From positions 1 to 51,694 of the forward strand of contig SCSX01000008.1 of NCBI GenBank assembly GCA_004297825.1: a stretch of DNA of 51,694 bases. The letters are read 5' to 3'. The DNA is from Spirochaetota bacterium. GTDB taxonomy: Bacteria; Spirochaetota; UBA4802; UBA5368. The notes under the pieces are model-generated. The model was not told the origin of the DNA. It did no database searches and saw only the letters and a program-made list of their open reading frames with translations. Both the position numbers and the translations under genes were made by a program. Numbering within the stretch: the first letter of the stretch is position 1; every line of letters begins with the position of its first letter. Positions 3,590 to 20,063 of the stretch are shown here, piece after piece.

Positions 3590-3619
3590 TGAAGGCGCGG
3601 TTATATAACCGCGCCTTCA
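3590..3619. repeat. Perfect 30-bp palindrome over a stop codon
   Basis: GAAGGCGCGGTTAT (3591-3604) is followed directly by its exact complement, with one more pair outside and no loop. It includes the last codons and TAA stop of the minus-strand iron-sulfur gene. There is no T-run on either side. It shares the GAAGGCGCG core with the palindromes at 12215, 14898 and 44005 and may end or protect the transcript. Confidence 0.7.
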
Positions 3620-5166: not shown

Positions 5167-6107
5167 ACCGATCTGCTGATCACGTTCATGGCGGCCGGGT
5201 TGATCTCGCCCATTCCCTCGCGTCCCGCGAGGGCGAGGTAGCCAATCGCGCCCGGCTGCATGCCGAACAGCGTAACCGCCCAGGCGTCGACGGTCACGGG
5301 GTTGGTGCCCATGACGATGGTCTTCGTCTCGCGGATGTCGGCGGCCTCCCCGCCGTTGGGGCCGTGCGCGGTGAGAATGCGGGTCGCGTCGAGTATGACG
5401 AGGTCGCTCTTCACCGCCTTGTTGAAATCGACGATCGCGGGATGAAGGTCCCAGTGGTAGAGGCCGCGTTCCCCGCCCAGGACCCCCATCAGGTTTTTCA
5501 TCGACAGGGTGAGCGTCGAGGAGCCGTGGTGCTTGGCGATGGGCATGTTGATGAGGAAATCGGCGTCCATGATGTCGCCGTATACGGGAAGCGATTTGTA
5601 GACCAGGCCCGACGGCACGGCGAGCTTGAAGTACTTGTTGTCGTCCATGTACGAAATATCCGCGCCCGCGTTCTTCGCGGCCTGGGCGATACCGCTGCGC
5701 CGATAACACAGTTGCGGCGTGTTGACGCTCCTGTCGAATATCTTCACGCGGGCTCCCTGCGCGATGCAAAGGCGGGCGACCGCTTCGACGAGGTCGGGGT
5801 TGGTGTTGTGCGCCCTCTCGGGCGGCGAGTTCCACCCGATATTGGGCTTGATCACGACGTTCATGTCGGGCTTGATGAAGCGCCCCACGCCGCCCAGGGC
5901 CTCGAAGCCTTCATCGACCATGCGGTTGATCACGGCGGCCGATAGATCGTTGCCCTTAATTACCGCTATGGTGGAACCGTTCTCCCGTGCCGCCCACACC
6001 GCGCGCGCCGGCGGACGTACATACCCGCCGAGCAGCATGCCCGCGACGACGGCGCACGCCCTGACGAGAAATCCCCTCCTGCTGTGACCGCCCATTCCCT
6101 GTTTCAT
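5163..6107 (-). CDS. DUF362 protein with Tat signal
   Basis: A 314-residue DUF362 protein. The N-terminus SRRGFLVRACAVVAGMLLGG is a twin-arginine signal, so it is probably exported folded. Typical DUF362 segments follow: VIKPNIGWN, NTNPDLVEAVARL, NMPIAKHH, LTLSMKNLMG and VMGTNPVTVDAWA. The family is often found with ferredoxin domains and its chemistry is not established. It is coupled by a 4-base overlap to the NapH/NapG-like gene, so the two probably act together at the outer face of the membrane. A second ATG at 6095 is also possible. A promoter with a dyad lies just upstream. Confidence 0.85.
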   Translation of the reverse strand: MKQGMGGHSRRGFLVRACAVVAGMLLGGYVRPPARAVWAARENGSTIAVIKGNDLSAAVINRMVDEGFEALGGVGRFIKPDMNVVIKPNIGWNSPPERAHNTNPDLVEAVARLCIAQGARVKIFDRSVNTPQLCYRRSGIAQAAKNAGADISYMDDNKYFKLAVPSGLVYKSLPVYGDIMDADFLINMPIAKHHGSSTLTLSMKNLMGVLGGERGLYHWDLHPAIVDFNKAVKSDLVILDATRILTAHGPNGGEAADIRETKTIVMGTNPVTVDAWAVTLFGMQPGAIGYLALAGREGMGEINPAAMNVISRSV

Positions 6108-6173: not shown

Positions 6174-6542
6174 GAATTTATAAATTGACCGTCCGTTCAT
6201 CTTTTTTATCGACGCTAATTATTTTGGTTGACGCGCCAATTTGTTGAGGTGAAATGGATTCGATTGATTGGTCAAATAATCAATTAACTGGACAAGCGAC
6301 TAAGCACCGGGACGGAATTGGCGGCGCGCAGAATCGCTGTCCGGCGGCACTGTGCCTGAGGAAAAGTGAACAGGGATGACCGGGGTGATATCAGGCAGCG
6401 TGCTACATAATAACGAAAAGCGGCTAAATATTTTTTTTGAACACGTTTTGGTCGGTTGTCCAATCTTGTCGGCTGATCCGGGGACGCCGGCGAGCGCTCC
6501 CCGCACGGGATCCCTAAAAACGCGCAGGGATCGGTGGACGGC
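6174..6542. other. Intergenic region between divergent genes
   Basis: About 370 bases without a convincing gene. It holds one dyad, ATTGATT (6263-6269) and AATCAAT (6278-6284) with an 8-base spacer, which could be an operator. I see no clear promoter for the PHP gene and no RNA gene. Confidence 0.5.
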
Positions 6543-7091
6543 ATGCTGATGAAGGGCTGTCTCCACACGCACACGACCTGCTCCGACGGAAAAATGAGCC
6601 CGCGGGAGGTCGCCAGGGCGTACGAGTACCTGGGGTACGATTTCATCGCCTTCACCGATCACGACTACCTGTTGAAGCCCTTCTACCGGGACATGTACGA
6701 CGAGGTCGAGACGGACATGATCATCTTCACCGGGGTCGAGCTCACGGTGTTCGTGAAGGGCTACATCCACGTTAACAGGATCGAGGGGACGAGCGAGTTG
6801 CTGCACATCTTCAACCATATCGGGGAATACGACCTTTCGCCCGCGCAGGTACTGGAGCGTCTCGCGGAGCTGGAGCGCATGTTCCCGATCGACGCGGTGG
6901 AGATCACCTCGAAGGGTTTCCGCGACGAGACCTTCGAGAATCTGCCCATCCGCTATCCTAAGATCGCCTCCGACGATGCGCACGGCAGCGTGGGAATAGG
7001 CAGGGGATGGATAGAGCTCGATACGGCGAGGGACAAGGATTCGATAATCCGCGCGGTCAAGCGCGGCGAATTCTGGAATTGCTACATATGA
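6543..7091 (+). CDS. PHP-domain metal-dependent phosphoesterase
   Basis: A 182-residue protein with the PHP motifs in order: CLHTHTTCSDG (HxH), FTDHD, a metal-binding glutamate in GVEL, the histidine of FNHIGEYD and the terminal SDDAH. These residues bind two or three metals in the family, which hydrolyses phosphoesters; substrates range from histidinol phosphate to nucleotides and are not predictable here. The ATG at 6543 follows GGTGG at good spacing; GTG 6534 and ATG 6549 are alternatives. It stands 120 bases before the acyl-CoA cluster and a weak hairpin separates them, so membership of that operon is uncertain. Confidence 0.8.
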   Translation: MLMKGCLHTHTTCSDGKMSPREVARAYEYLGYDFIAFTDHDYLLKPFYRDMYDEVETDMIIFTGVELTVFVKGYIHVNRIEGTSELLHIFNHIGEYDLSPAQVLERLAELERMFPIDAVEITSKGFRDETFENLPIRYPKIASDDAHGSVGIGRGWIELDTARDKDSIIRAVKRGEFWNCYI

Positions 7092-7198: not shown

Positions 7199-7215
7199 AT
7201 TCCAGGAGGATGATA

Positions 7216-8361
7216 ATGGGCAAAAGAGTGGCGGTCTGCGCCGTGGCGCAGATTAAAAACGACCCGAATTACTGGCATCTGCGGTTTCAAAACATGCTGC
7301 ATGAGTGTTTCGAGTCCATCATGGGGCAGACCAAGGTCAACTTCGACATGGAGAAGGGGATCAGGACCGTCATCACCTGTTCTGACGACGTGTTCGACGC
7401 GCGGACGATTTCCAACAACGGCGTCACCGACGTGGTGGGCGCCCAGTTCCGCGGCGAGGAGAAGATGGCCCAGGAAAGCATCAACGGCCTCGGGTACGCG
7501 ATGGCGAGCATTCTTGCCGGGCACGACGACGTGGTGCTGTTCATGGGGCACTGCAAGGAATCCCAGGGCGAGAGCAAGAAAATGGTCATGAACCTCGCGT
7601 ACGACCCGTTTTTCTGCAGGCCGCTGGGGATGGATTTCGTGAACGCGGACGCGCTGCAGGCGCGCGCCTACATGCAAAAGTCGGGCGTGACCGATGCGCA
7701 TCTTGCAAAGGTCGTGGTGCGCTCGCGAAAGAACGCCCGAAGGAACCCCTATGCGCGCGAATGCGCACTCGTGGACGAAAACGAAGTAATGAATTCGCCC
7801 ATGCTCGCGGATCCGATGCGCGAGATGCACTACTATCCCGATACCGACTGGGCCTTCGGGATGCTGCTCTGCTGCGAGGAGCGCGTGAAGGAGTTCACGA
7901 AGAAGCCCGTGTGGGTAAGCGGGTACGGGAGCTGCATGGACAGCTATTTCCTGGGCGACCGCGACCTCACCTCGAATTTCTCGCTCAAGAACGCCGCGAA
8001 GCGCGCGTACGAGAAGGCGGGGGTGAAAGACCCGCGCAGGGAGATCGATATTTTCGAACTTTCGGATCACGCCGCGTACCAGCTTCCCATGTGGGCCGAG
8101 GGTGTGGGGATCGCCGATGAGGGCAAGGGCGGCGCCTGGATCGACGAGGGCGGAATGGAAAAGTATAACGTGAACCTTTCGGGCGGCCAGTTGAACGGAA
8201 ATCCCCTCCTCCTGGGCGGCGCCGCGCGGGCGATCGAATGCGTGCTGCAACTGCGCGGCGAGGCCGGTGACCGGCAGGTGAAGGGGGCGAAAAAGGCCCT
8301 TGCGCAGGCCGCATACGGCGGGGCCGGTCAGCACCAAGCCGTCGTCATACTGGAAGCGTGA
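7216..8361 (+). CDS. Thiolase-fold protein, type A, module 1
   Basis: A 381-residue member of the SCP-x/lipid-transfer branch of the thiolase superfamily. Superfamily landmarks are present: SILAGHDDVVLFMG, YFLGDRDL, ELSDHAAYQLP, NLSGGQLNGNP and RGEAGDRQVKGAKKAL. Counting back from the 'AG' before HDDVV, the residue expected to be the nucleophilic cysteine falls in KMAQESING and is not Cys. The usual His before 'DAF' reads SDH, and GHP reads GNP. Thiolytic activity is therefore doubtful, and a cleavage such as that of Ltp2-type aldolases is a possible alternative. ATG 7216 has AGGAGG at 6-base spacing; the in-frame ATG at 7210 has none. It is followed 12 bases later by a second thiolase-fold gene. 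Confidence 0.8.
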   Translation: MGKRVAVCAVAQIKNDPNYWHLRFQNMLHECFESIMGQTKVNFDMEKGIRTVITCSDDVFDARTISNNGVTDVVGAQFRGEEKMAQESINGLGYAMASILAGHDDVVLFMGHCKESQGESKKMVMNLAYDPFFCRPLGMDFVNADALQARAYMQKSGVTDAHLAKVVVRSRKNARRNPYARECALVDENEVMNSPMLADPMREMHYYPDTDWAFGMLLCCEERVKEFTKKPVWVSGYGSCMDSYFLGDRDLTSNFSLKNAAKRAYEKAGVKDPRREIDIFELSDHAAYQLPMWAEGVGIADEGKGGAWIDEGGMEKYNVNLSGGQLNGNPLLLGGAARAIECVLQLRGEAGDRQVKGAKKALAQAAYGGAGQHQAVVILEA

Positions 8362-8373
8362 GGAGGCATGGCA

Positions 8374-9591
8374 ATGGCACACAGGAAGAAGAACAGGAAT
8401 GTAGGCATTATCGGGATAGGCCAGACCAAGTATTCCAGTCATCGCGAGGACGTCAACCAGCCCGAAATGATCCACGAGGCGGTGATCGCTGCGCTCAAGG
8501 ATGCGGGCCTCACGATGAAGGACGTGGACTGCATAGTTCACGGAAACATGGAGCTCTTTGAAATGGTCCACCAGCCTGACCTCTGGCATACGCTGGGAAC
8601 CGGCGCGTACGGGAAGGACTGCATACGCATTACCACGGGAGGCACCGTGGGCGCGACGGTCGCCTGCGCTGCGGACAACCTCGTGGCCTCGGGGATGTAC
8701 GACATCGTCATGGCGATCGGCTTCGAGAAGCTCCAGGAGGGTCACACGACGGGCGGCATCACCAACATGGCCGACCCGCTCTGGTTCCGCCATCTGCAGA
8801 CGGGCGCCCTCACGGGCACCAAGGCGTACGACGTCATAAAGGAATTCGGCGAGGAACGCGCCAAGCGCGCCTCGCTCATGTACCGCATCATCATGGACAA
8901 GCACGCGGGACTCAACCCGAACGCCCACCGCGCGTTTGGACTCGAGTTCGAGCAGATCGACGACCTCATCAAGACCTCGCCCAGGCTCGTGGGTGATCTC
9001 AAGCTCATTGAGATGTGCTCCCAGTCGGACGGTGCATGCTGCGTGATCTTTGCCTGTGAAAAGAAGGCGAAGGAGCTCTCTAAGAAGCCCGTCTGGGTGC
9101 GCGACCATATCACCGTTCACCGCGAGGAGGTGTTCGTCATGTTCGGCTACGACGACAGGAACCCCTTCCCGGCGACGCACCGGTTCGCGGCCGAGCAGCT
9201 CTACACGCGCAATGGCGTCACGAGCCCGGTCGATTATTTCGACGTATTCGAGATGTACGACCCGGCGTCCTGGTGGGCGGTCGACTGGCTGCGCGACTTC
9301 TTCATGTTGAAGGGCGATGAGCACCTGAAGCTCGTTGAAAACAAGGAAATTATGATTGGCGGGAAGATCCCGGTCAATCCCTCCGGCGGCGTGATCGGCT
9401 CCAACCCGATTGGCGCCACGGCGCTCGTGCGCGTGGCGGAAGCCGCGCTGCAGGTCCGCGGCGACGCGGGCGCGCACCAGATTCCCACGCCCGTGAATCA
9501 CGCGCTGGCGTCCGGGTTTGGCGGGACGATGTGGACGGTGCTCATGATGCTTGAAAAGGAGCTTAACTGGCAGGAGGCGCACAATGGCTGA
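8374..9591 (+). CDS. Thiolase-fold protein, type B, module 1
   Basis: A 405-residue SCP-x-type thiolase-superfamily protein. The nucleophile region reads RITTGGTVGATV, with GGTVG where thiolases have CASG, followed by LVASGMYDIVMAIGFEKL. The first catalytic His region reads EMYDPAS, and the GHP motif reads SNPIGATALV. None of the three standard catalytic residues is obvious. It probably pairs with the type-A protein just upstream and with the DUF35 proteins downstream. ATG 8374 is preferred because AGGAGG lies 7 bases away; ATG 8368 is too close. The 3' end overlaps the next gene by 8 bases. Confidence 0.8.
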   Translation: MAHRKKNRNVGIIGIGQTKYSSHREDVNQPEMIHEAVIAALKDAGLTMKDVDCIVHGNMELFEMVHQPDLWHTLGTGAYGKDCIRITTGGTVGATVACAADNLVASGMYDIVMAIGFEKLQEGHTTGGITNMADPLWFRHLQTGALTGTKAYDVIKEFGEERAKRASLMYRIIMDKHAGLNPNAHRAFGLEFEQIDDLIKTSPRLVGDLKLIEMCSQSDGACCVIFACEKKAKELSKKPVWVRDHITVHREEVFVMFGYDDRNPFPATHRFAAEQLYTRNGVTSPVDYFDVFEMYDPASWWAVDWLRDFFMLKGDEHLKLVENKEIMIGGKIPVNPSGGVIGSNPIGATALVRVAEAALQVRGDAGAHQIPTPVNHALASGFGGTMWTVLMMLEKELNWQEAHNG

Positions 9592-10762
9592 ATATTGGGG
9601 TATGAAGGTTGAAGATATATTCAACACCATGAAGGAACGCTTCCGGCCCGAGGGCGCCAGGGACGTCAATGCCTCGTTCGGCTATGACATCAAGGGCGAG
9701 GGCAGGTGGCGGCTGACGGTCAAGAACAACGCGATGGACATCGATAAGACCGATGACCTCGCGGGGTGTGCGGCGATCATGCTCGCGGACGGCGAGACAT
9801 TCGTGGGCGTCAATACCGGGAAGGTCGACGGCGCGGGCGCCTTCACCTCCGGCAAGGTGAAAGTCGAAGGGAGCCTTTCCGACTTCGGGAAAACGGCGAA
9901 GATGTTCCGCAAGTTTTCGCCGCCCAGGAAGGAGTATATGGATAAGGATTACATCCTGGACATGTTCGGGACGATCGTATCGCGTTTTCAGCCCCAGAAC
10001 TGCGAGGGCTTGGAAGCGGCGATCGCGTACGATCTAAAAGGCGATGCGGGGGGCCAGTGGACCGCGGTCATCAAGGACGGGAAGTGCGCGCTTAAGAACA
10101 CCATCGAGGGCAAACCCACCGTACGGCTCGAAGTCGCGGCGTCCGACTGGGTGCGCGTGATGATGGGCAAGATCGACGCCATGAGTCTCCTCGCGGAGGG
10201 CAAGGCGGCGATCGTGGGGGACACGAGCCTGGCGCTCAGGCTGGGCCAGATCTTCGCGAAGTACACGCCCACGTGGGCGGCGCCGGAGCAGGAGCTCATC
10301 ATGCTCAAGAGGACCATATCGGTGAACCAGAAGTTTTCGACGGGTCCCGTCATGGGCAAGTTTCTCAACGCGCTCAAGGAAAAGAAAATTTTCACGAACA
10401 AGTGTCCCCGGTGCGGAAGGGTGCATCTGCCCGCGCGCGAGGTGTGCGCGGAATGCCGCGTCCCCGCGACGGAATGGGTCACCGTGGGACCCAAGGGGCA
10501 GGTTCGGTTCATGGAATACGTGTACTACGCCTCCCCGGACCCGCTCACGGGCGAGACCCGCGACACGCCGTACGGCATGGGCAACATACTGCTGGACGGC
10601 TGTATCGGCAACGACACCTTCGCGCACCTGATACGGCGCGACCAGATCGACCGGATCAAGGGCGGCAATAACGAGGTTTCGGGTACCCGCGTGCGCCCCG
10701 TCTGGAACGAGACGCGCACGGGTAGCATTCACGACATCAAGTATTTCGAAATAGACGAGTGA
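9584..10762 (+). CDS. Tandem SCP2 domains fused to a DUF35 OB-fold
   Basis: A 392-residue three-domain protein. Residues about 5-105 and 115-225 are two SCP2-like sterol-carrier domains; both repeat an 'F.P..... AAIAYDLKG' pattern and a later ADWVRVMMGKID-type segment (the first copy is more diverged). Residues about 250-392 are a DUF35 domain: a zinc ribbon CPRCGRVHLPAREVCAEC followed by an OB-fold with the insert DPLTGETRDTPYGMG. DUF35 proteins bind thiolase-fold enzymes and shape their acyl-CoA site. The SCP2 part may hold a hydrophobic substrate. The ATG at 9584 has AGGAGG upstream and overlaps the previous gene by 8 bases. Its DUF35 part resembles the one encoded at 19599. Confidence 0.8.
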   Translation: MAEYWGMKVEDIFNTMKERFRPEGARDVNASFGYDIKGEGRWRLTVKNNAMDIDKTDDLAGCAAIMLADGETFVGVNTGKVDGAGAFTSGKVKVEGSLSDFGKTAKMFRKFSPPRKEYMDKDYILDMFGTIVSRFQPQNCEGLEAAIAYDLKGDAGGQWTAVIKDGKCALKNTIEGKPTVRLEVAASDWVRVMMGKIDAMSLLAEGKAAIVGDTSLALRLGQIFAKYTPTWAAPEQELIMLKRTISVNQKFSTGPVMGKFLNALKEKKIFTNKCPRCGRVHLPAREVCAECRVPATEWVTVGPKGQVRFMEYVYYASPDPLTGETRDTPYGMGNILLDGCIGNDTFAHLIRRDQIDRIKGGNNEVSGTRVRPVWNETRTGSIHDIKYFEIDE

Positions 10763-10773
10763 GGAGGGGAGCA

Positions 10774-12198
10774 ATGAGTCTGGATTTCGATCGTAAGGAT
10801 TGCTTCGTCGTTGATGGGAAACTCGCACTCCCCTACACCTACTTTGCCGGCAGGATGGGGAGCAAGTTCATCACCACGCTGCGGGACGAGAAGAAGATCA
10901 TGGGAGTCAAGTGCCCGGTCTGCAACAAGGTGTACGTGCCGCCGCGGCAGACGTGCGAGATCGACATGACGGATATACGCGAAAACTGGGTGGAGCTCAG
11001 GAACACGGGCGAGGTCACGAATTTCACCGTGATCCGCTACGACGACAAGCACCTGCCCAGGAAGGCGCCGTTCATTCTCGCGCTCGTCAAGCTTGACGGC
11101 GCGGACAGCCCCTTCGCGCATATCCTCGAAGGGATCGTGCCGGAGGAGGTTACCCTGGGAATGCGGGTCGAGGCCGTATTCGCGAAGGCGACTACGAGCA
11201 CGATACTCGATATCGACCATTTTGAGCCCGCCAGGGTATCGAAGGTTCAGGTTTCCGAACCGGCACCGCGCGCGCAGGAACACGCGGCCGTACCAAAATC
11301 AAAAGAAGAGCTTGATCAGGACGAGAGGAGGAAAGCAATGTCGAAAAAAATCATTATCACCGCGGCCCTTGCGGGTGCCGCAACCATGAAGAATCAGAAC
11401 CCGGCCGTCCCGTATTCACCCCAGGAGTTCGCGGATGACGCGTACAAATGCTGGAAGGCAGGCGCGGCGATGGTCCACGTCCACGCGCGCGAGGACTCGG
11501 GCATGGCGACGCACGACCACGGCCGCATCAAGGATACGCACGACGCCATCAGGGAAAAATGCCCGGACCTCATCGTGAACATGAGCTCCGCCGTGGGCAT
11601 GGGCAAGACCGCGGAGCAGCGTATCAGCCAGATCATCCACGTGAAACCGGAGATGGCGTCGCTCAATACCAACACGATGAACTTTTCGCTCGTCGACCGC
11701 AAGTCGGGCAAGGTCTTCATCGATTTCGTATTTGAGAACACCTTCACCATGCTGCAGGATTTCGGGAAGGCCATGGAAGAGGCCGGCGTGAAACCGGAGA
11801 TGGAGCTGTACGACATGGGCGGGCTGGACAACTGGGCCCTCATCGCGAAGCAGGGTTTCTTCACCAGGCCCTTCAATTTCAACTTCGTGTGGGGGGTCGC
11901 GGGCGGTCAGGCGTTCCGGCCGGATGCGTTCATGACCATGAAGCACGCGCTGCCTGAAGGCGCGAACTTCACCACGTGCGGCGTCGGCACGGACCAGTTT
12001 CCGGCCATCACAATGTCGTCGCTTGCGGGCGGACACATGCGCGTGGGTCTGGAGGACAACATCCGCATACCCACCGGCGAGCTCGCAAAGGGAAGCTATG
12101 AGCAGGTCGAGTGGGCAGTGAAGATCGCCCAGATCGCCGGCCGCGAGGTCGCGACGCCCGACGAGGCGCGCGCGATCATGGGTCTCCGGAAAAGGTAA
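10774..12198 (+). CDS. DUF35 OB-fold fused in frame to a BKACE (DUF849) enzyme
   Basis: One uninterrupted 474-residue frame. Residues 1-160 are a DUF35 domain: an N-terminal helix region, CPVCNKVYVPPRQTC, and an OB-fold ending GMRVEAVF. The zinc ribbon has only three cysteines; the fourth position is Asp or Met. A Pro/Ala/charge-rich linker (about 160-188) leads to a complete 286-residue BKACE domain with the zinc motif VHVHARED and a late GGHMRVGLEDN. BKACE enzymes cleave a beta-keto acid with acetyl-CoA into acetoacetate and an acyl-CoA. A strong ribosome site and an in-frame ATG at 11338 mean BKACE may also be made alone. The gene starts at ATG 10774 behind GAGGAGG. It closes the first module and is followed by a perfect palindrome. 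Confidence 0.8.
   Translation: MSLDFDRKDCFVVDGKLALPYTYFAGRMGSKFITTLRDEKKIMGVKCPVCNKVYVPPRQTCEIDMTDIRENWVELRNTGEVTNFTVIRYDDKHLPRKAPFILALVKLDGADSPFAHILEGIVPEEVTLGMRVEAVFAKATTSTILDIDHFEPARVSKVQVSEPAPRAQEHAAVPKSKEELDQDERRKAMSKKIIITAALAGAATMKNQNPAVPYSPQEFADDAYKCWKAGAAMVHVHAREDSGMATHDHGRIKDTHDAIREKCPDLIVNMSSAVGMGKTAEQRISQIIHVKPEMASLNTNTMNFSLVDRKSGKVFIDFVFENTFTMLQDFGKAMEEAGVKPEMELYDMGGLDNWALIAKQGFFTRPFNFNFVWGVAGGQAFRPDAFMTMKHALPEGANFTTCGVGTDQFPAITMSSLAGGHMRVGLEDNIRIPTGELAKGSYEQVEWAVKIAQIAGREVATPDEARAIMGLRKR
11323..11340 (+). promoter_or_regulatory. Internal ribosome site and ATG for BKACE
   Basis: GAGAGGAGG (11323-11331) stands 6 bases before ATG 11338, in frame with the upstream DUF35 domain and with no stop between them. 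The spacing and strength equal the best start sites of the cluster. It marks the likely ancestral start of a separate BKACE gene and may still be used. Confidence 0.75.
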
Positions 12199-12258: not shown

Positions 12259-12291
12259 GGGCTCGCATGCGTGAGAATTGAGGTGGAGCAA

Positions 12292-13068
12292 ATGGCCAAG
12301 TGCGTTTATGAAGTGAACGACAGGGGGATTGCGTTATTAAAGATCAATAATCCGCCCATGAACGCGCTGGACGAGCAGACGATGCTGGAGCTTGAGTTCT
12401 CGATGCGCCAGGTCGAGGTCGACGATCGCGTGAAGGTGGTAATCATAACCGGCGAGGGGACGACCTTCGTGGTGGGTGCGGATGTGAACAAGGTGCGCAA
12501 CGTGAAAAGGGCGGAGGACGGGCGGAGGCTCACGACCCGCGCCCATGAAATCATGGACCTAATAATGAATTCGAGGAAGCCGGTGATCGCGGCCATAAAC
12601 GGGCTGTGTCTCGGAGGCGGCATGGAGCTCGCAATGGCGTGCCACATCCGGATCGCGGGCGACCAGGCGCAGATGGGCCTTCCCGAGATCATGCTCGGCA
12701 TCATGCCCGGTTTTGGCGGAACGCAGAGGAGTGCGAGGCTCCTGGGGGCCGGGAAGGCGCTCGAAATAATGCTCACCGGGAAATTCATCGACATGACCGA
12801 GGCGAAAGAGATCGGGCTCGTCGGCCGGGTAGTGCCTCAGTCCGATATCATGAATGAAGCCGAAAAGCTCGCGAAACAGATCGCGTCGAAGGGGCAGCTG
12901 GCGGTGCGCGCAATCGTGGAGGCGGTCATCGAGGGCGGACGCATGACGCTCAGGGAAGGACTCGAACTCGAATCGGAACTTTTCGGGAGGCTCGCAGAAT
13001 CCGAGGACAAGGAGGAGGGGATAAACGCATTTCTCGAAAAGCGCACACCGGCGTTCAAAGATAAATAG
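12292..13068 (+). CDS. Enoyl-CoA hydratase (crotonase family)
   Basis: A 258-residue crotonase. It has the oxyanion segment GADVNKVRN near residue 62 and GLCLGGGMELAMAC, with E112 and E132 in the places of the two catalytic glutamates of rat enoyl-CoA hydratase (20 residues apart), followed by GIMPGFGGTQR. Both glutamates being present favours true hydratase activity on 2-enoyl-CoA. A ring-cleaving hydrolase of the same fold remains possible, given the neighbours. ATG 12292 follows AGGTGGAG; the GTG at 12271 is less likely. It begins 34 bases after a perfect palindrome and is followed after 22 bases by an acyl-CoA synthetase gene. Confidence 0.9.
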   Translation: MAKCVYEVNDRGIALLKINNPPMNALDEQTMLELEFSMRQVEVDDRVKVVIITGEGTTFVVGADVNKVRNVKRAEDGRRLTTRAHEIMDLIMNSRKPVIAAINGLCLGGGMELAMACHIRIAGDQAQMGLPEIMLGIMPGFGGTQRSARLLGAGKALEIMLTGKFIDMTEAKEIGLVGRVVPQSDIMNEAEKLAKQIASKGQLAVRAIVEAVIEGGRMTLREGLELESELFGRLAESEDKEEGINAFLEKRTPAFKDK

Positions 13069-13090: not shown

Positions 13091-14905
13091 ATGGAAGAAA
13101 AAACCATTAACTCGGTCTTTAGAAACAGGGTTAAAAAATACGGCGACAGGCTCGCGGTCGAAAAAAAGCTCAAGGGCGCATGGCAGCAGGCCACGTGGAA
13201 CCAGTATTACGGCAATGCGCGCGCGGCGGGTCTGGGGCTCCATGAACTGGGCGTACGCAAGGGCGACCGGGTCTGCCTTATCTGCGACAACCGCCTCGAG
13301 TGGCTCTATACCGACATGGGCACGCTGGGAATCGGCGCCGTGCTCGTCCCCATCTACGCGACGCTCGCCGATGAAGAAGCGGAATACATTATCGGCCATT
13401 CGGACGCCAGGGTCGTGATCGTCGAAAACAATGCCCAGTACCGGAAGGTGTGCGAGGCGCAGAAAACCTGCCCGGCGCTGGTTAAAACCGTGCTCATCGA
13501 CGGGGAGGATGTCGGCGCGCTGCCACCGTCCGTAATGATGTTCCAGGATCTCATGGCGCTCGGCGGAAAAAGGCACGAGGCGGAGCCGGCCCTGTTCGAA
13601 AAGCTCGCGGACGGCGTCGATCGCGAGGACCTGGCCACCTTCGTGTACACCTCGGGCACCACGGGACCGCCCAAGGGCGCGATGATTTCCCACAAGAACA
13701 TTATGGCGCAGATGCTCGCGCTCGACGCGGTCAGGCCTCAGTTCGGGTTTGATACCGATAACACCGTTCCCTTCCTGCCGCTTTCTCACGTGTTCGAAAG
13801 GATCGCCGGCCATTTTTACGGAATGTACGTGGGACTCACCGCGTCATACGCCGAGAGCATGGACACGATCGTCGCCGATATCCAGGAGAAACGGCCCACG
13901 GAGATACTCGCGGTGCCGCGCGTGTGCGAAAAAGTCTTTCAGCGCATCACCATGCAGGTGAAGGAGCAGCCGGTGTGGAAGCAGAAGGTGTTCTACTGGG
14001 GACAGAAGGTGGGTCAGCGCATCTCCGAGTTGCGCGAGGCGAAAAGGCCGATTCCCCTGGGGACGCGCCTCCGTTACGCGATAGCCTACCGCATGATCTT
14101 CAAAAAACTCGCGATGGCGCTTGGCGGGCGCGTACGATGGATGACGGCGTCGGGGGCGCCCACGGCCAGGGAAATCATTCAATTCTTCAACGCGGCGGGA
14201 ATCCAGGTGGTGGAGGGCTACGGCATGACCGAGCTCACCGCTCCCGCGACGATGAGCAACCTCGCGGATTACCGGATAGGGACTGTCGGCAAGCCCCTTC
14301 CCGGTTACCAGATCAAGCTCGCGGACGACGGCGAGATACTGGTCAAGGGAGAGTGCGTGATCAAGGGATACTGGAAGCTTCCGGACGCGACCAGGGATTC
14401 GTTCACGCGCGACGGATTCTTCATGACGGGAGACATAGGCGCATTTACCGATGAGGGGTTTCTCATGATCACGGACCGCAAAAAGGACCTGATCATCACC
14501 TCGGGCGGCAAGAACGTGGCCCCGCAGAATATCGAAAACCTCTTCAAGAGCGACCCGCTGTTTACCCAGTTCATCGTGATAGGCGAGCGCAGGAAATACC
14601 TGAGCGCGCTGTGCAACATCGACCTCGTGCTCGCCGCGAAGCTCGCGAGCGATCGGAAGATCGCGTTCGGGAAGCCCGAGGAACTGCTCGATAACCGGGA
14701 ATTCCTGGATATCGTGGACGAGCGTGTGGCCGAGCGCAACCGTCACCTCGCGAAATACGAATCCATCAAGAAATACCGCATCGTGAAGCGCGAATTTTCA
14801 AAGGAATCCGGCGAGCTCACCGCGACGCTCAAGGTGAAGCGAAAGGCGGTAGGCGAATTATATAAAGACCTGATTGAAAGCATGTATGCCGAAAATGAGG
14901 CCTGA
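13091..14905 (+). CDS. Long-chain acyl-CoA synthetase (AMP-forming)
   Basis: A 604-residue member of the ANL superfamily, similar to long-chain fatty acyl-CoA ligases. The ATP loop YTSGTTGPPKG lies near residue 186, the EGYGMTELTAP motif in the middle, and TGDIGAF, DRKKDLIITSGGKNVAP and a C-terminal lysine region complete the two domains. It activates a carboxylic acid to its CoA thioester with ATP, the likely entry step of the pathway. ATG 13091 follows GGAGGA. The stop codon lies inside a perfect palindrome (14898-14941). The acid it uses cannot be read from the sequence. Confidence 0.92.
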   Translation: MEEKTINSVFRNRVKKYGDRLAVEKKLKGAWQQATWNQYYGNARAAGLGLHELGVRKGDRVCLICDNRLEWLYTDMGTLGIGAVLVPIYATLADEEAEYIIGHSDARVVIVENNAQYRKVCEAQKTCPALVKTVLIDGEDVGALPPSVMMFQDLMALGGKRHEAEPALFEKLADGVDREDLATFVYTSGTTGPPKGAMISHKNIMAQMLALDAVRPQFGFDTDNTVPFLPLSHVFERIAGHFYGMYVGLTASYAESMDTIVADIQEKRPTEILAVPRVCEKVFQRITMQVKEQPVWKQKVFYWGQKVGQRISELREAKRPIPLGTRLRYAIAYRMIFKKLAMALGGRVRWMTASGAPTAREIIQFFNAAGIQVVEGYGMTELTAPATMSNLADYRIGTVGKPLPGYQIKLADDGEILVKGECVIKGYWKLPDATRDSFTRDGFFMTGDIGAFTDEGFLMITDRKKDLIITSGGKNVAPQNIENLFKSDPLFTQFIVIGERRKYLSALCNIDLVLAAKLASDRKIAFGKPEELLDNREFLDIVDERVAERNRHLAKYESIKKYRIVKREFSKESGELTATLKVKRKAVGELYKDLIESMYAENEA

Positions 14906-14980: not shown

Positions 14981-15970
14981 ATGACGATGGATCTCAAGTC
15001 GGGAATAAACACCCTGTTCACCGATCCCGATCCGGACAATGCGCGTGAATTTTTCAGGCACAAGTCCCGGGCGATGAAATCAAAGCTCACCACCGTGCAG
15101 GAAGCGGTGCGCACGATGATCAAGGACGGCGACTATGTCGCGATAGGCGGGTTCGGGGCGAACAGGATCCCCACGGCGATACTGCACGAAATGGTGCGCC
15201 AGAAGAAAAAGAACCTGGGCTTCGCGGGACATACCTCTACCCATGACTTCCAGATACTGGTCGGCGGGGAATGCATCGACCGCTGCGACGTGGCCTACAT
15301 CATAGGCCTCGAGGCGCGGGGATTGTCGGCATCCGCGCGGCGCTACGTCGAGAGCGGGAAGCTCAAGCTCACTGAGTGGACGAACGGGACCCTCTCGTGG
15401 AGGCTCAAGGCGGCGGCCATGGGGCTTTCCTTTCTGCCGGCGCGCAACATTATGGGGACCGATACCTTCAAGTACAGCGCCGGCAAGGAGATCGAGTGCC
15501 CGTACACAGGGAAAAAGTTCGCGGCGCACCCTGCGCTCTACCCGGACTTCGCGGCGATCCACGTGCACGAGTGCGATGTCTATGGGAACGCACGCGTCTA
15601 CGGGGCCTCGGTCTCGGACCAGGACCTGGCGAAGGCGGCCAAGCGCGTGGTGCTGACCACGGAGCGCATCATCTCCACCGACAAGATCCGGCAGAACCCG
15701 GAGTGCACGTTCATCCCGTTCTGGTGCGTGGACGCCGTCATCGAGGTGCCCTACGGGAGCTACCCGGGCAACATGCCCTACGAGTACTTCTCGGACGAGG
15801 CGCACATCAAGGAATGGCTGACCGTGGAGAAGGACCCGGACGAGTTCAGGAAGTTCCTGGATAAACAGATCTACGGGACGAAGGACTTCTACGAATACCT
15901 GGAGCTTAACGGCGGTATCGGGAAGATGATGAAACTGCGGTCGATCGAGCTTTTGACCGACAGGCAGTAA
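14981..15970 (+). CDS. CoA-transferase alpha subunit (GctA/IpdA-like)
   Basis: A 329-residue class I CoA-transferase alpha subunit. Visible landmarks are AIGGFGANRIPTAIL, GLEARGLS, TEWTNGTLSWRLKA, HVHECDVYGNARVYG and VPYGSYPGNMPYEYFS; the last is typical of the glutaconate CoA-transferase A group. The same fold includes IpdA, part of the steroid ring-cleaving hydrolase. It works with the beta subunit encoded 11 bases downstream. An N-terminal extension of about 25 residues precedes the usual start (KSKLTTVQEAV). ATG 14981 has TGGAGGA at 6-base spacing. It probably moves CoA between an acid intermediate and an acyl-CoA donor. Confidence 0.88.
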   Translation: MTMDLKSGINTLFTDPDPDNAREFFRHKSRAMKSKLTTVQEAVRTMIKDGDYVAIGGFGANRIPTAILHEMVRQKKKNLGFAGHTSTHDFQILVGGECIDRCDVAYIIGLEARGLSASARRYVESGKLKLTEWTNGTLSWRLKAAAMGLSFLPARNIMGTDTFKYSAGKEIECPYTGKKFAAHPALYPDFAAIHVHECDVYGNARVYGASVSDQDLAKAAKRVVLTTERIISTDKIRQNPECTFIPFWCVDAVIEVPYGSYPGNMPYEYFSDEAHIKEWLTVEKDPDEFRKFLDKQIYGTKDFYEYLELNGGIGKMMKLRSIELLTDRQ

Positions 15971-15981
15971 GGAGGACGACA

Positions 15982-16752
15982 ATGGCAGATTACAATGCGA
16001 TGGAACTCATGATATGCGTTGCCGCGCGCAACCTCGAGGACGGCGCGACGGTGGTCGTGGGCACGGGGGCGCCCTGCGCGGCCGCCATGCTCTCGCAGAA
16101 GACGCACTCCCCCAATCTCACGATCATGTTCGAGGCGGGGGGCGTGGCGCCCATCCTGCCGTCCATGCCCATCTCGGTGGGCGACTCGCGCACCTTTCAC
16201 AAGGCGATCATGGCGAGCTCGATGCCGGAGATCATGGAGACGTGCCAGCGCGGGATGGTGGACTACACCTTCCTGGGCGGGGCGCAGATAGACATGTACG
16301 GGAATATCAACTCGACGATGATCGGGAAGGACCACCAGAAACCCAAGGTGCGCTTCCCCGGTTCCGGCGGGGCGAACGACCTGGCGAGCCTCTGCTGGCG
16401 CACGATGATGATGACTGTTCAGGACGCGAAACGCTTCACGGACAAGCCCGATTTCATCACCTCGCCGGGTTACCTCCAGGGCGGAAATTCGCGCTACGAG
16501 GCGGGGCTGCCCCTGGGGACGGGACCGTACCGCATCATCACGAACATGGCGATCATGGGATTCGACGCCGAGACGAAGTGGATGACGGTGCTCTCGATCA
16601 ATCCCGGGTACAGCCGCAAGGACGTGCAGGACAACTGCGGCTTCGAGCTGAAGTGGGCCCAGAAGATCACCGACACCGACCCGCCGCACGCGGAGGAGCT
16701 CAGGATATTGCGCGAGGTCGTGGACCCGCATCGTTATATAATAGGACGATAA
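15982..16752 (+). CDS. CoA-transferase beta subunit (GctB/IpdB-like)
   Basis: A 256-residue class I CoA-transferase beta subunit with VVGTGAPCAAAML, NLTIMFEAGGVAP, FLGGAQIDMYGNINS, FPGSGGAND and a C-terminal INPGYSRKDVQDNCGFEL. The glutamate in MFEAGG lies where true CoA-transferases carry the residue that forms the glutamyl-CoA intermediate. As I recall, IpdB of steroid degraders lacks this Glu, so genuine transferase activity is favoured over ring hydrolysis. It forms a heteromer with the upstream alpha subunit. AAGGAGG precedes the ATG. A weak hairpin separates it from the next DUF35 gene. Confidence 0.88.
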   Translation: MADYNAMELMICVAARNLEDGATVVVGTGAPCAAAMLSQKTHSPNLTIMFEAGGVAPILPSMPISVGDSRTFHKAIMASSMPEIMETCQRGMVDYTFLGGAQIDMYGNINSTMIGKDHQKPKVRFPGSGGANDLASLCWRTMMMTVQDAKRFTDKPDFITSPGYLQGGNSRYEAGLPLGTGPYRIITNMAIMGFDAETKWMTVLSINPGYSRKDVQDNCGFELKWAQKITDTDPPHAEELRILREVVDPHRYIIGR

Positions 16753-16799: not shown

Positions 16800-17270
16800 A
16801 TGGCAGACATTTTCAAGGGCGTCGAGCCCCTGGTAGTGAAGAGCAAGATAAGTGTTCCCTACCACTGGTGGGCCGGAGAAACGGCGAGCACGTTCTACGT
16901 AACCCTGCGCGATAAGCAGGCGATCATGGGCACCCGTTGCGCGAAATGCGCGAAGCTCTTCTTGCCGCCCCGCAAGACGTGTCCCCTGTGTTTCGGCACG
17001 GAGATGGAATGGAAGGCGGTCAAGACGGCAGGCGTCGTCCAGGCCTTCACCGTGGTACGCAGGCAGCTCGCGGCGATGTCGAAAAAGGCGCCGGTAATCT
17101 ACGCCCTTATAAAGCTCGAAGGCGCGGATTCCGGGTTCCTTCACGTCCTGGACCAGGTGCGCCCCGAGGACGTGAAGATCGGGATGCGGGTCGAGGCGAA
17201 GTTCGCCGGAAACAGGACGGCGACCATCTTCGACATAGAATATTTCAAGCCGGCCAGCCAGGAGAAATGA
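16800..17270 (+). CDS. DUF35 OB-fold thiolase partner, module 2
   Basis: A 156-residue stand-alone DUF35 protein. An N-terminal helix region (VPYHWWAGETASTFYVTLRD) leads to a complete zinc ribbon, CAKCAKLFLPPRKTCPLC, and an OB-fold ending GMRVEAKF. It matches the DUF35 half of the BKACE fusion closely (shared KKAP or RKAP, ALxKLxGADS and GMRVEA), so the two are paralogues. In known thiolase-DUF35 pairs it binds the enzyme and completes the CoA or acyl channel. The stop is one base before the next ATG, which implies co-expression with the type-A thiolase-fold protein. GGAGG precedes the start. Confidence 0.85.
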   Translation: MADIFKGVEPLVVKSKISVPYHWWAGETASTFYVTLRDKQAIMGTRCAKCAKLFLPPRKTCPLCFGTEMEWKAVKTAGVVQAFTVVRRQLAAMSKKAPVIYALIKLEGADSGFLHVLDQVRPEDVKIGMRVEAKFAGNRTATIFDIEYFKPASQEK

Positions 17271-17271
17271 C

Positions 17272-18417
17272 ATGGATAACGCGGCGATTATCGGCATTGG
17301 CATGACGAAGATAGAGGCCAGGAAGGTGGACATGACGTTCGCCGACATGGCCTTCGAGGCGACCAGGAAGGCCCTGGACGACGCGGGGATGACGATCGAC
17401 GACATCGATAACGTGATCACCACCTCGAACGATTTCTGGGACGGAAGGACTATCTCCTGCATGGCGGTGGGCGACGCGAGCGGCGCGAACGACAAGAACG
17501 TTTCATGCGTGGAGGGAGACGGCGCCTTTGGCGCGTTTTACGGGCTCGCGCGGTCGCTTTCGGGTTCGTACGGCACGACCCTCGTGACGGGCCATTCGAA
17601 GGGATCGCAGAGCGTATCGAGCCTCATCACCAACGCGGCCTTCGATCCCATTTACAACAGGGCGCTCGGCCTGGACATGATCGGCGCATGCGCGATGCAG
17701 GCCTCCGCGTACATGCACCGGACCGGCACCACGGCGCGGCAGCTCGCGGCCGTTTCGGTGAAAAACCACGGGAACGCGCTGAAAAACCCGAACGCCCAGC
17801 TCGGTATGAAGCTTTCGGTGGAGGACGTGCTCAAGTCGGAGATGATCGCGGACCCGCTGCACAAGCTGGACTGTTCACCCGTATCGGACGGGTGCTGCGC
17901 GATCATCATCGCGAACGAGGACCGGGCGAAAAAGTACAAGGGCAAACCGGTCTGGATCAAGGGCGTGGCGATGTGCGCGGACGCGTACTTTTTCGGAGAC
18001 CGCGACCTGTCCAGGGCCGATTCGCTCGTCAAGGCGGCGAAGCAGGCCTGCGCGATGGCGGGCGTATCGGACCCCGCTAAACAAATAGACTTTGCCGAGG
18101 TGTACGACGCGTTCAGCTACCAGGAGCTCATGTGGCTGGAGGGCCTGGGCCTGTGCGCGGACGGTGCCGCCGGGAAGCTCATCGAGGACGGGGCGTTCGG
18201 GATCGAGGGGAGGCTGCCGGTGAACGCGTCGGGCGGGCTCCTGGGCGGGCACGCGGTGATCGCCGCGGGACTGTATCGGATCGCCGAGGTCGTGAAGCAG
18301 ATTCGCGGCGAAGCGGGTGCGTACCAGGTGAAGAAGGCCCATGTAGGCCTCGCCCACGGTGTGAACGGCCTTGCGGGCCAGTCGCACTGCGTGTGGATTC
18401 TCGGCAAGGACAGGTAG
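17272..18417 (+). CDS. Thiolase-fold protein, type A, module 2
   Basis: A 381-residue SCP-x-type thiolase-superfamily protein, paralogous to the one at 7216 (shared RTIS, GHxKxSQ, YFxGDRDL). The nucleophile region reads SCVEGDGAFG. Counting back from LSG puts Glu, not Cys, at the active position, although a Cys lies two residues earlier and could matter. The first His is replaced in EVYDAFSYQEL, while the second motif NASGGLLGGHAV keeps its His. It may be an aldolase or a structural partner of the type-B protein that follows 10 bases downstream. The ATG sits one base after the preceding DUF35 stop. Confidence 0.8.
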   Translation: MDNAAIIGIGMTKIEARKVDMTFADMAFEATRKALDDAGMTIDDIDNVITTSNDFWDGRTISCMAVGDASGANDKNVSCVEGDGAFGAFYGLARSLSGSYGTTLVTGHSKGSQSVSSLITNAAFDPIYNRALGLDMIGACAMQASAYMHRTGTTARQLAAVSVKNHGNALKNPNAQLGMKLSVEDVLKSEMIADPLHKLDCSPVSDGCCAIIIANEDRAKKYKGKPVWIKGVAMCADAYFFGDRDLSRADSLVKAAKQACAMAGVSDPAKQIDFAEVYDAFSYQELMWLEGLGLCADGAAGKLIEDGAFGIEGRLPVNASGGLLGGHAVIAAGLYRIAEVVKQIRGEAGAYQVKKAHVGLAHGVNGLAGQSHCVWILGKDR

Positions 18418-18427
18418 GGGGCGCGTT

Positions 18428-19588
18428 ATGGCAAAGAGGGTTGCGATAGTCGGAACGGGCCAGACTTTCCACAAGAGTCACAGGCCCGACGTGAACGGAC
18501 AGGAGCTCATCAACGAAGCGGTCCAGCGCGCGCTCCGGGACGCGGGGCTCACCATCGGGGACATAGACGCCATCGTTATCGGGAACATGGACCACTTCGA
18601 GGGGATCAATTACGTGGATTGCTGGAGCGTGGACGGCGCCGGCGGTTTCATGAAGCCCGTTCTAAAGATAACCACGGGCGGCACGACGGGGTGCACGATC
18701 GCGATCGGGGGCTACCACCTGGTCGCCTCGGGCATGTACGACAAGGTGCTCGTCATCGGGTGGGAGAAGAATTCGGAATCGGACACCTCGGGTGCGATCA
18801 CGACGGCCTTCGATCCCATCTGGGACCGGCTGGTCTTCGCGGGCGCGATCTCGGGCCTGGCCGCGGAGGCGCAGGCGTACATGGCGCGCTACGGCGCGAC
18901 CGACAGGGATGCCGCGCGGGTGTCGGTGCGCGACAGGAAGCACGCGCTCAACAACCCGCACGCGCAGCTTCGCAAGGAGGTCTCGATCGAGGAGGTGCTG
19001 GCGTCACCGATGCTCGCTGACCCCATACATCTGCTGGATATCTGCCCCCGCACCGACGGCGCGTGCGCGGTCGTTATGGCGAATGAGGACAGCGCGGAGA
19101 AGCTCTGCGAAAATCCCGACTGGATATGGGGAACCGGTAACCGGCACTCGTACGCCTACATCGGTGACGCCGACATGGGAAGACTCACCAGCATGGAACG
19201 CACCGCCCGCGAGATATTCAAAAAGGCGGGGATCAGGGAGCCGCGCAAGGAAATTAATGTCATAGAGCTGTATCAGCCCTATTCCTTCGCGGGGATCATC
19301 TGGATCGAGGACATGGGAATCGTCCCGCCGGGGAAGGGCGCGGAGTACATCTGGAGCGGGGCGACCGACATGGGCGGCGAGCTCCCGGTGAATCCCTCGG
19401 GGGGGGTGATCTCCTGCAATCCCATAGGCGCGACCGGCCTGGTACGGTGCGCCGAGGCGGCGATGCAGGTCATGGGAAATGCCGAGGGGCGTCAGGTGCC
19501 AAACGTGAATTTCGCGGTGAGCACGGGCTTTGGCGGATGCTGGTGGACCGATATGATCCTCCACGGAAAGAAAAAACCGAATTACTAG
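18428..19588 (+). CDS. Thiolase-fold protein, type B, module 2
   Basis: A 386-residue SCP-x-type thiolase-superfamily protein, paralogous to the one at 8374. Shared motifs are KITTGGTTGCT at the nucleophile site (GGTTG in place of CASG), LVASGMYDKVLVIGWEK, ELYQPYS instead of a His motif, and NPSGGVISCNPIGATGLVR. A Cys is present in TGCT but shifted by several residues from the expected place. It probably forms a complex with the type-A protein and DUF35 partners. The start at 18428 follows AGGGGGCG; longer frames upstream run inside the previous gene. Its stop is 10 bases before the next DUF35 start. Confidence 0.8.
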   Translation: MAKRVAIVGTGQTFHKSHRPDVNGQELINEAVQRALRDAGLTIGDIDAIVIGNMDHFEGINYVDCWSVDGAGGFMKPVLKITTGGTTGCTIAIGGYHLVASGMYDKVLVIGWEKNSESDTSGAITTAFDPIWDRLVFAGAISGLAAEAQAYMARYGATDRDAARVSVRDRKHALNNPHAQLRKEVSIEEVLASPMLADPIHLLDICPRTDGACAVVMANEDSAEKLCENPDWIWGTGNRHSYAYIGDADMGRLTSMERTAREIFKKAGIREPRKEINVIELYQPYSFAGIIWIEDMGIVPPGKGAEYIWSGATDMGGELPVNPSGGVISCNPIGATGLVRCAEAAMQVMGNAEGRQVPNVNFAVSTGFGGCWWTDMILHGKKKPNY

Positions 19589-19598
19589 GAGCGCGGAA

Positions 19599-20063
19599 AT
19601 GGCAGAAAACGAGCATATCGTCATAGAGTCCGGGGACGCGGCGCAGCCGTTCGATTACGCCGTGGGCATGCACGGTTCCAAGTTCTTCAAGGAGCTTCGT
19701 GACAACAAGAAGATCATGGGGATACGCTGTCCCAAATGCGGGAAGGTCTACGTTCCGCCCCGCGGGGTGTGCGGTCCCTGTTTCCAGGAAATGAGCGAAT
19801 TTGTGGAGGTGGGGCCGGGCGGCTATATCGGCACCTACACCATCCTCCGCTTCGCGTTCATCGATCCCGAGACCGGGCACCAGAAACCCGTTCCCTATGG
19901 CTACGGCTTCATCAAGTTCGACGGCGCCGACACGCTGTTCCAGCATTACATCGACATCGAGGACGAGAAGAAGGTAAAAATCGGCGCGCGCGTAGAGCCC
20001 GTCTTTGCCGCGGAGCGCAAGGGAACGATCAAGGACATTCAGTATTTCCGGGTGGTGGATTAG
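19599..20063 (+). CDS. DUF35 OB-fold thiolase partner, type B
   Basis: A 154-residue DUF35 protein with a complete zinc ribbon (CPKCGKVYVPPRGVCGPC) and an OB-fold carrying the insert DPETGHQKPVPYGYG. This insert is shared with the DUF35 part of the SCP2 fusion at 9584 and is absent from those at 10774 and 16800, so there are two DUF35 classes, one per thiolase type. The protein ends at GTIKDIQYFRVVD. It closes module 2 and is followed after 36 bases by a phosphatase-like gene. Confidence 0.85.
   Translation: MAENEHIVIESGDAAQPFDYAVGMHGSKFFKELRDNKKIMGIRCPKCGKVYVPPRGVCGPCFQEMSEFVEVGPGGYIGTYTILRFAFIDPETGHQKPVPYGYGFIKFDGADTLFQHYIDIEDEKKVKIGARVEPVFAAERKGTIKDIQYFRVVD

Follow-up and report, generated by a model that had tools for sequence, protein, structure and literature searches.

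A DUF35-BKACE fusion gene with a retained internal start site in a Spirochaetota bacterium

Introduction

In the MaoC hydratase Shy, it is the DUF35 domain, and not the MaoC domain, that copurifies with the thiolase-fold protein Sal (PMC11321319). Sal carries Gly in place of Cys and is incapable of thiolysis, and it is held by the hydratase's DUF35 domain on a long flexible linker, an arrangement that its authors consider inconsistent with direct channelling (PMC12329534). BKACE enzymes convert a beta-keto acid and acetyl-CoA to an acyl-CoA and acetoacetate, and one characterised member of the family is a homotetramer that is inhibited by acetoacetate (PMC11961710). The roles of the BKACE zinc ligands and of an active-site Tyr have likewise been described (PMC12871164).

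Here we analyse a gene of a Spirochaetota bacterium in which a DUF35 domain and a BKACE domain are joined. It lies on contig SCSX01000008.1, in a stretch of 51,694 nucleotides that we call the window. A preliminary description of this DNA had stated that BKACE is not a known partner of DUF35. A structural paper on DUF35 names fusions to thiolase, SDR, SCP2 and dehydratase domains and to no others (PMC2954200), and the literature that we searched, mostly papers available without subscription, holds no report of a DUF35-BKACE protein and no paper containing both terms. Thus, as far as could be searched, the pairing is unreported.

Results

One open reading frame encodes both domains

Positions 10774-12198 of the forward strand form a single open reading frame of 474 residues that runs to the TAA at 12196-12198 with zero in-frame stops and encodes a DUF35 domain followed by a complete BKACE domain (Table 1). 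Residues are numbered from the ATG at 10774, which is preceded by further in-frame codons. Pfam searches with the 474-residue product matched OB_ChsH2_C (PF01796) at residues 72-136 (48.6 bits; cut-off 27.1) and BKACE (PF05853) at residues 192-471, spanning positions 1-274 of the 274-position profile (318.6 bits; cut-off 24.8). The open frame and the Pfam matches thus agree with the preliminary description, which had placed both domains in one stop-free frame, and the product sizes that it gave, 474 and 286 residues, are correct. In an AlphaFold2 model, linker residues 155-174 are disordered, with pLDDT below 50, and residues 177-188 are helical.

Table 1. Features of the fusion gene and of the surrounding operon in the window.
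Feature	Position	Strand	Basis
PHP-domain protein, at the head of the conserved core	6534..7091	+	Pfam; synteny
Thiolase-fold protein A1 (ThlA1), no nucleophilic Cys	7210..8361	+	profile match; alignment
Thiolase-fold protein B1 (ThlB1), Cys to Gly, YDPA motif	8368..9591	+	profile match; alignment; AlphaFold2/Foldseek
SCP2-DUF35 fusion; true start probably ATG at 9584	9551..10762	+	open frame; Pfam
Ribosome-binding site of the fusion gene, AGGAGG, 6-nt spacing	10763..10773	+	sequence
DUF35-BKACE fusion gene, 474 aa	10774..12198	+	open frame; Pfam; recurrence of the fusion at about 25 distinct loci
DUF35 domain: zinc-ribbon remnant and OB fold; model core residues 42-152	10774..11235	+	PF01796; AlphaFold2; Foldseek
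Linker of ~34 aa, most simply the former intergenic spacer plus BKACE leader	11236..11337	+	split orthologs; pLDDT below 50
Internal Shine-Dalgarno AGGAGG, codons of R185 and R186	11326..11331	+	sequence; codon conservation
BKACE domain / putative free 286-aa BKACE from ATG 11338-11340	11338..12198	+	PF05853; invariant active-site residues
Enoyl-CoA hydratase family protein	12271..13068	+	Pfam; NCBIfam
Acyl-CoA synthetase (FadD-like)	13091..14905	+	
CoA-transferase subunit A, glutaconate CoA-transferase type	14981..15970	+	Pfam; nearest structure
CoA-transferase subunit B	15982..16752	+	Pfam; NCBIfam
Stand-alone DUF35, 45% to the fused DUF35	16800..17270	+	Pfam
Thiolase-fold protein A2, no nucleophilic Cys, YDAF motif	17272..18417	+	alignment
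Thiolase-fold protein B2, Cys to Gly, YQPY motif	18371..19588	+	alignment
Stand-alone DUF35	19599..20063	+	Pfam

An assembly or frame error that merged two genes is conceivable in a draft assembly of 96 contigs, but many independent assemblies share the open frame, as does a second fused copy in the same genome (at C74, 72% identical). We therefore reject this explanation and regard its probability as negligible. Relatives from the same order of Spirochaetota carry the fusion at 68-95% identity, again with the frame open, and about 25 distinct loci with the same fusion were found in databases. Among 393 genomes of the phylum, 20 have a match at E 1e-100 or better, all within that order; outside it, a few 'Deltaproteobacteria' MAGs carry the fusion too (L042, L043 and L097). 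None of the plasmid BKACE matches covers 80% of the fusion. In a BKACE tree, for which the phylum names of MAGs come from NCBI titles and are uncertain, the 25 fused sequences fall on one side of a branch with support of 83/89, a placement that fits a single fusion event.

The linker corresponds to an intergenic spacer in outgroups

Outgroup anaerobes (Syntrophaceae and other 'Deltaproteobacteria' MAGs) have DUF35 and BKACE as adjacent but separate genes, in the same gene order as the fused loci. In these split orthologs the DUF35 gene stops one residue past a DHFEP motif and is followed by a spacer, a strong ribosome-binding site and the ATG of BKACE, with usually 20-85 nt (200 in one case) from stop to start. 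In the fusions, a variable linker, roughly 28-36 residues long, instead connects DHFxP with the BKACE Met. Given where the split DUF35 proteins end, the linker is most simply read as the old intergenic spacer and the internal ribosome-binding site as the old BKACE start. The preliminary description had named a stop codon near the junction in relatives as the sign of two separate genes; such stops do occur, but in outgroups only, where they represent the state before fusion. The comparison thus points to an ancestral operon in which the gene of a DUF35 docking protein adjoined that of a zinc-dependent BKACE, and in which loss of the DUF35 stop codon turned the spacer into a linker and created the fusion.

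BKACE also adjoins DUF35 in different gene orders in Clostridia MAGs and one Syntrophaceae MAG (L064, L065 and L053), which suggests that the association of the two predates the fusion. In the Clostridia MAGs the neighbours include a thiolase-fold pair as well.

Codons at the internal start site are unusually conserved

The ATG at 11338-11340 encodes residue 189 and is preceded by AGGAGG at 11326-11331 with a 6-nt spacing, equal in strength and spacing to the gene's own site upstream of 10774. This bears out the earlier claim of a full-strength ribosome-binding site and ATG at the junction. Since 3 of the other 187 in-frame ATGs that lie inside genes of the operon (1.6%) also have a Shine-Dalgarno match of at least 6 nt at a usable spacing, a lone site is modest evidence. 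The site also lies in RNA that is less structured than 99% of the same-length windows of this gene.

We examined codon conservation in 12 fusions, chosen by their shared junction peptide, ERRK[A/E]M. Their junction codons are GAR-AGG-AGG-AAA, and of the two Arg positions at the junction, the first has AGG in 12 of 12 cases and the second in 11 of 12; elsewhere, as many as 6 codons occur at an invariant Arg. Codon identity, averaged over pairs of sequences, is 0.875 for ERRK, compared with 0.435 as the mean of 261 invariant positions, and ERRK ranks first among 56 four-residue runs, the next of which has a value of 0.693. Relatedness is controlled in this comparison because ERRK and the comparison codons come from the same sequences. 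Synonymous reshuffling at single loci of the group, with a codon background drawn from the operons, gave P of about 0.02-0.11 only, and is alone too weak to decide on constraint at the internal site. The conservation across loci turns the modest evidence of the lone site into strong evidence, and we reject a chance Shine-Dalgarno match on this ground. The junctions of other fusions are RGGKPDM-like; in these, GGAGG lies in a different phase, at a distance of ten bases from the ATG.

The site could nevertheless be an uneroded fossil of the gene as it was before fusion, with the fusion as the sole product. Its derivation from the old BKACE start would be expected on this reading, as would its decay elsewhere: L026 and L074 have ATA in place of the internal ATG, L042 has CTG, and the internal Shine-Dalgarno sequence has decayed in L023, L024 and L078. 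A fossil should, however, drift like the other synonymous sites of the same genes, and in the ERRK group the junction codons are far more conserved than these, so we hold the fossil reading to be unlikely, if still worth weighing. Rare Arg codons and Shine-Dalgarno-like motifs have also been proposed to slow ribosomes, and AGG-AGG sits exactly between two folding units. It might thus be kept for an inter-domain pause, or for another RNA function, and not for initiation. A pause requires neither an ATG nor its spacing, though, and the spacing to a conserved ATG here suits initiation, as does the unusually unstructured region; we consider a pause improbable.

We conclude that in the window's lineage the internal ribosome-binding site appears to be still under selection, so that the preliminary description's retained start is joined by synonymous constraint, and the cell probably makes both tethered and free BKACE. 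Since several fusions have lost the start or retain a weak one, two products are, to judge from these loci, not required everywhere, and the internal start is dispensable where it has been lost. The fusion alone would suffice in some other lineages; the genome of L042 shows no other close BKACE.

The BKACE domain has an intact active site

The zinc ligands H235, H237 and E427, together with the catalytic Tyr (Y346), R423 and D428, are invariant in an alignment that includes fused, split and close solo homologs. From what is known of the family and from this intact active site, the fused BKACE would be expected to run the usual reaction. The closest structure to this half is Kce. Identity as the Kce of lysine fermentation was rejected, as the NCBIfam score (NF052387, 274.4 bits) falls below the cut-off of 382. 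Ala (A203) aligns with Glu14 of Kce, its residue for the substrate amine.

Close BKACE homologs also exist with no DUF35 gene nearby; BKACE therefore does not need DUF35. One such solo gene lies near 3-hydroxyacyl-CoA dehydrogenase and ordinary thiolase genes (L062) and another near a 3-hydroxyacyl-CoA dehydrogenase gene (L087), and neither neighbourhood gave a substrate for the fusion. A DUF362 and Fer4 pair follows the solo BKACE of L087 (9648-12107), and DUF362 and polyferredoxin-like genes adjoin the operon in the window (3601-6107, minus strand).

The DUF35 domain resembles ChsH2 and neighbours Cys-less thiolase-fold proteins

In a Foldseek search with the AlphaFold2 model, the best DUF35 structure match of the fused domain was 6ok1_B, from the Ltp2-ChsH2 aldolase complex. 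Three zinc-ribbon Cys residues (window 10912-10959) are invariant. The fourth is Asp in the window protein and many fusions, and Cys in split orthologs and some fusions; the zf-ChsH2 model was not reported for the window protein.

The fused DUF35 has a thiolase-fold pair in its gene neighbourhood, and wherever the flanking sequence suffices, fused and split loci alike contain the core ThlA1-ThlB1-SCP2DUF35-DUF35-BKACE. In most Spirochaetota loci, the genes that follow encode the hydratase, the synthetase, the CoA-transferase and a second thiolase-fold pair, which has two DUF35 genes of its own. An assignment of the CoA-transferase genes to IpdAB-like hydrolases was rejected, as the nearest solved structure is a glutaconate CoA-transferase. 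A PHP gene usually heads the core, in the window a small, metal-dependent phosphoesterase-like protein beside acyl-CoA genes. A shorter paralogous module, with the order ThlA1-ThlB1-SCP2DUF35-fusion-two acyl-CoA dehydrogenases and no PHP gene, is present at L072 (the C74 copy of the window's genome, G000), L074 and L077; some genomes have both this module and the long operon.

All four thiolase-fold genes match thiolase families. The nucleophilic Cys is nevertheless absent (Gly or a gap) from A1, B1, A2, B2 and all of their orthologs, and three of the four have Asn for His in the GHP motif, so their automatic annotation as thiolases is probably misleading, and we rejected a canonical thiolase as the partner. 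Aldolases of the Ltp2/Sal type have Gly for this Cys and a catalytic Tyr in a YDxF-like motif; here, Gly stands in B1 and B2, and Tyr in B1 (YDPA), A2 (YDAF) and B2 (YQPY) but not in A1. By Foldseek fold ranking, ThlB1 is no closer to one of thiolase and aldolase in a way that would tell them apart. The genes around the fusion are suggestive of anaerobic acyl-CoA catabolism, and the loss of the nucleophile in all four thiolase-fold proteins hints at a catabolic route in this operon that does without classical thiolysis.

Discussion

Given the Cys-less neighbours, the ChsH2-like DUF35 and the disordered linker, we favour tethering over channelling, and the partner of the fusion is probably a thiolase-fold complex of the aldolase type rather than a thiolase. 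The preliminary description had proposed that the fusion may tie BKACE to the thiolase complex and so channel a beta-keto acid. Tethering is plausible in the light of the conserved synteny and of the precedent of Shy and ChsH2, but the complex would not be thiolytic, and a beta-keto acid from a working thiolase is not to be expected of four neighbours that lack the nucleophile. The conserved gene order with thiolase-fold genes would also suit a true thiolase, and DUF35 mediates channelling in the archaeal thiolase/HMG-CoA synthase complex. Against this stand the missing Cys in the four proteins and their orthologs, the substrates (BKACE uses a free acid, the thiolase-fold enzymes CoA esters) and the linker, which is modelled as disordered, of a kind that the authors of the Sal study deem inconsistent with direct channelling (PMC12329534). 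We regard a true thiolase partner with channelling as very improbable.

In the tethering mechanism that we propose instead, the fused DUF35 would still bind A1/B1, in the manner of the DUF35 domains of ChsH2 and Shy with Ltp2 and Sal, and would thereby hold BKACE to the A1/B1 complex on a flexible arm. To judge from the codon-level constraint, the mRNA would also yield the free 286-residue BKACE from the selected internal site. Because a characterised BKACE is a homotetramer, we suggest that free subunits may mix with fused ones, which would leave fewer DUF35 arms per BKACE tetramer and might avoid cross-linking of dimeric thiolase-fold complexes. Taken whole, this explanation (fusion by stop-codon loss, a DUF35 dock that tethers BKACE to a thiolase-fold complex, and free BKACE from an internal start) seems to us moderately probable. 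A more elaborate version, in which the ratio of tethered to free enzyme sets the number of DUF35 arms per tetramer on a Cys-less scaffold of an intermediate-state fusion, and in which BKACE and the operon's CoA-transferase together replace thiolysis (beta-ketoacyl-CoA and acetyl-CoA giving a shorter acyl-CoA and acetoacetyl-CoA, with acetoacetate as an internal shuttle), is doubtful.

The loci form a before-and-after series of a gene fusion, comprising separate genes, a fusion with a constrained internal start and a fusion without the start, and this series makes directly testable why a fusion retains a free copy of one domain. The operon is widely conserved in uncultured anaerobes, and we found no earlier description of it in the literature searched. 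The fusion would extend the set of DUF35-docked enzymes and is not a new kind of system; if the docking holds, it adds a C-C-cleaving TIM-barrel enzyme to a short list.

ChsH2 and Shy, MaoC hydratase-DUF35 proteins docked to Ltp2 and Sal, respectively, are like the fusion as we picture it, in that the DUF35 attached to a catalytic domain binds a Cys-less thiolase-fold partner. Partner genes are neighbours in both, and long flexible linkers have been modelled for Shy-Sal, as predicted for the fusion. In contrast to ChsH2 and Shy, the fusion carries a TIM-barrel BKACE and not a hotdog hydratase, and has an internal start for the enzyme domain. The Asp at the fourth zinc position of the window protein may be compared with the Cys3His1 zinc finger reported for Shy. 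In the archaeal acetoacetyl-CoA thiolase/DUF35/HMG-CoA synthase complex, DUF35 likewise scaffolds a thiolase-fold enzyme and a second enzyme, but the thiolase is a true one with its Cys, the DUF35 is a separate chain, and the window DUF35 is structurally closer to ChsH2. The Kce of Ca. Cloacimonas (2y7f) and BKACE15 (8rio) share the whole fold, zinc ligands, Tyr, Arg and Asp with the fusion, from which they differ by its N-terminal DUF35, its Ala at Kce E14 and its score below the NCBIfam Kce cut-off. The bifunctional 3-aminobutyryl-CoA ammonia lyase/Kce (NF052389) also has BKACE as the C-terminal half of a natural fusion, but its partner is a catalytic lyase instead of DUF35, and the window protein, at 188.8, falls below the cut-off of 725, with a match that is essentially the BKACE half. 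Finally, SpaO (PMC13059759) has an in-frame internal start by which one frame gives two products, the short form being the C-terminal part; here, the evidence is at the codon level only, the short form would be a complete enzyme, and the site appears to predate the fusion.
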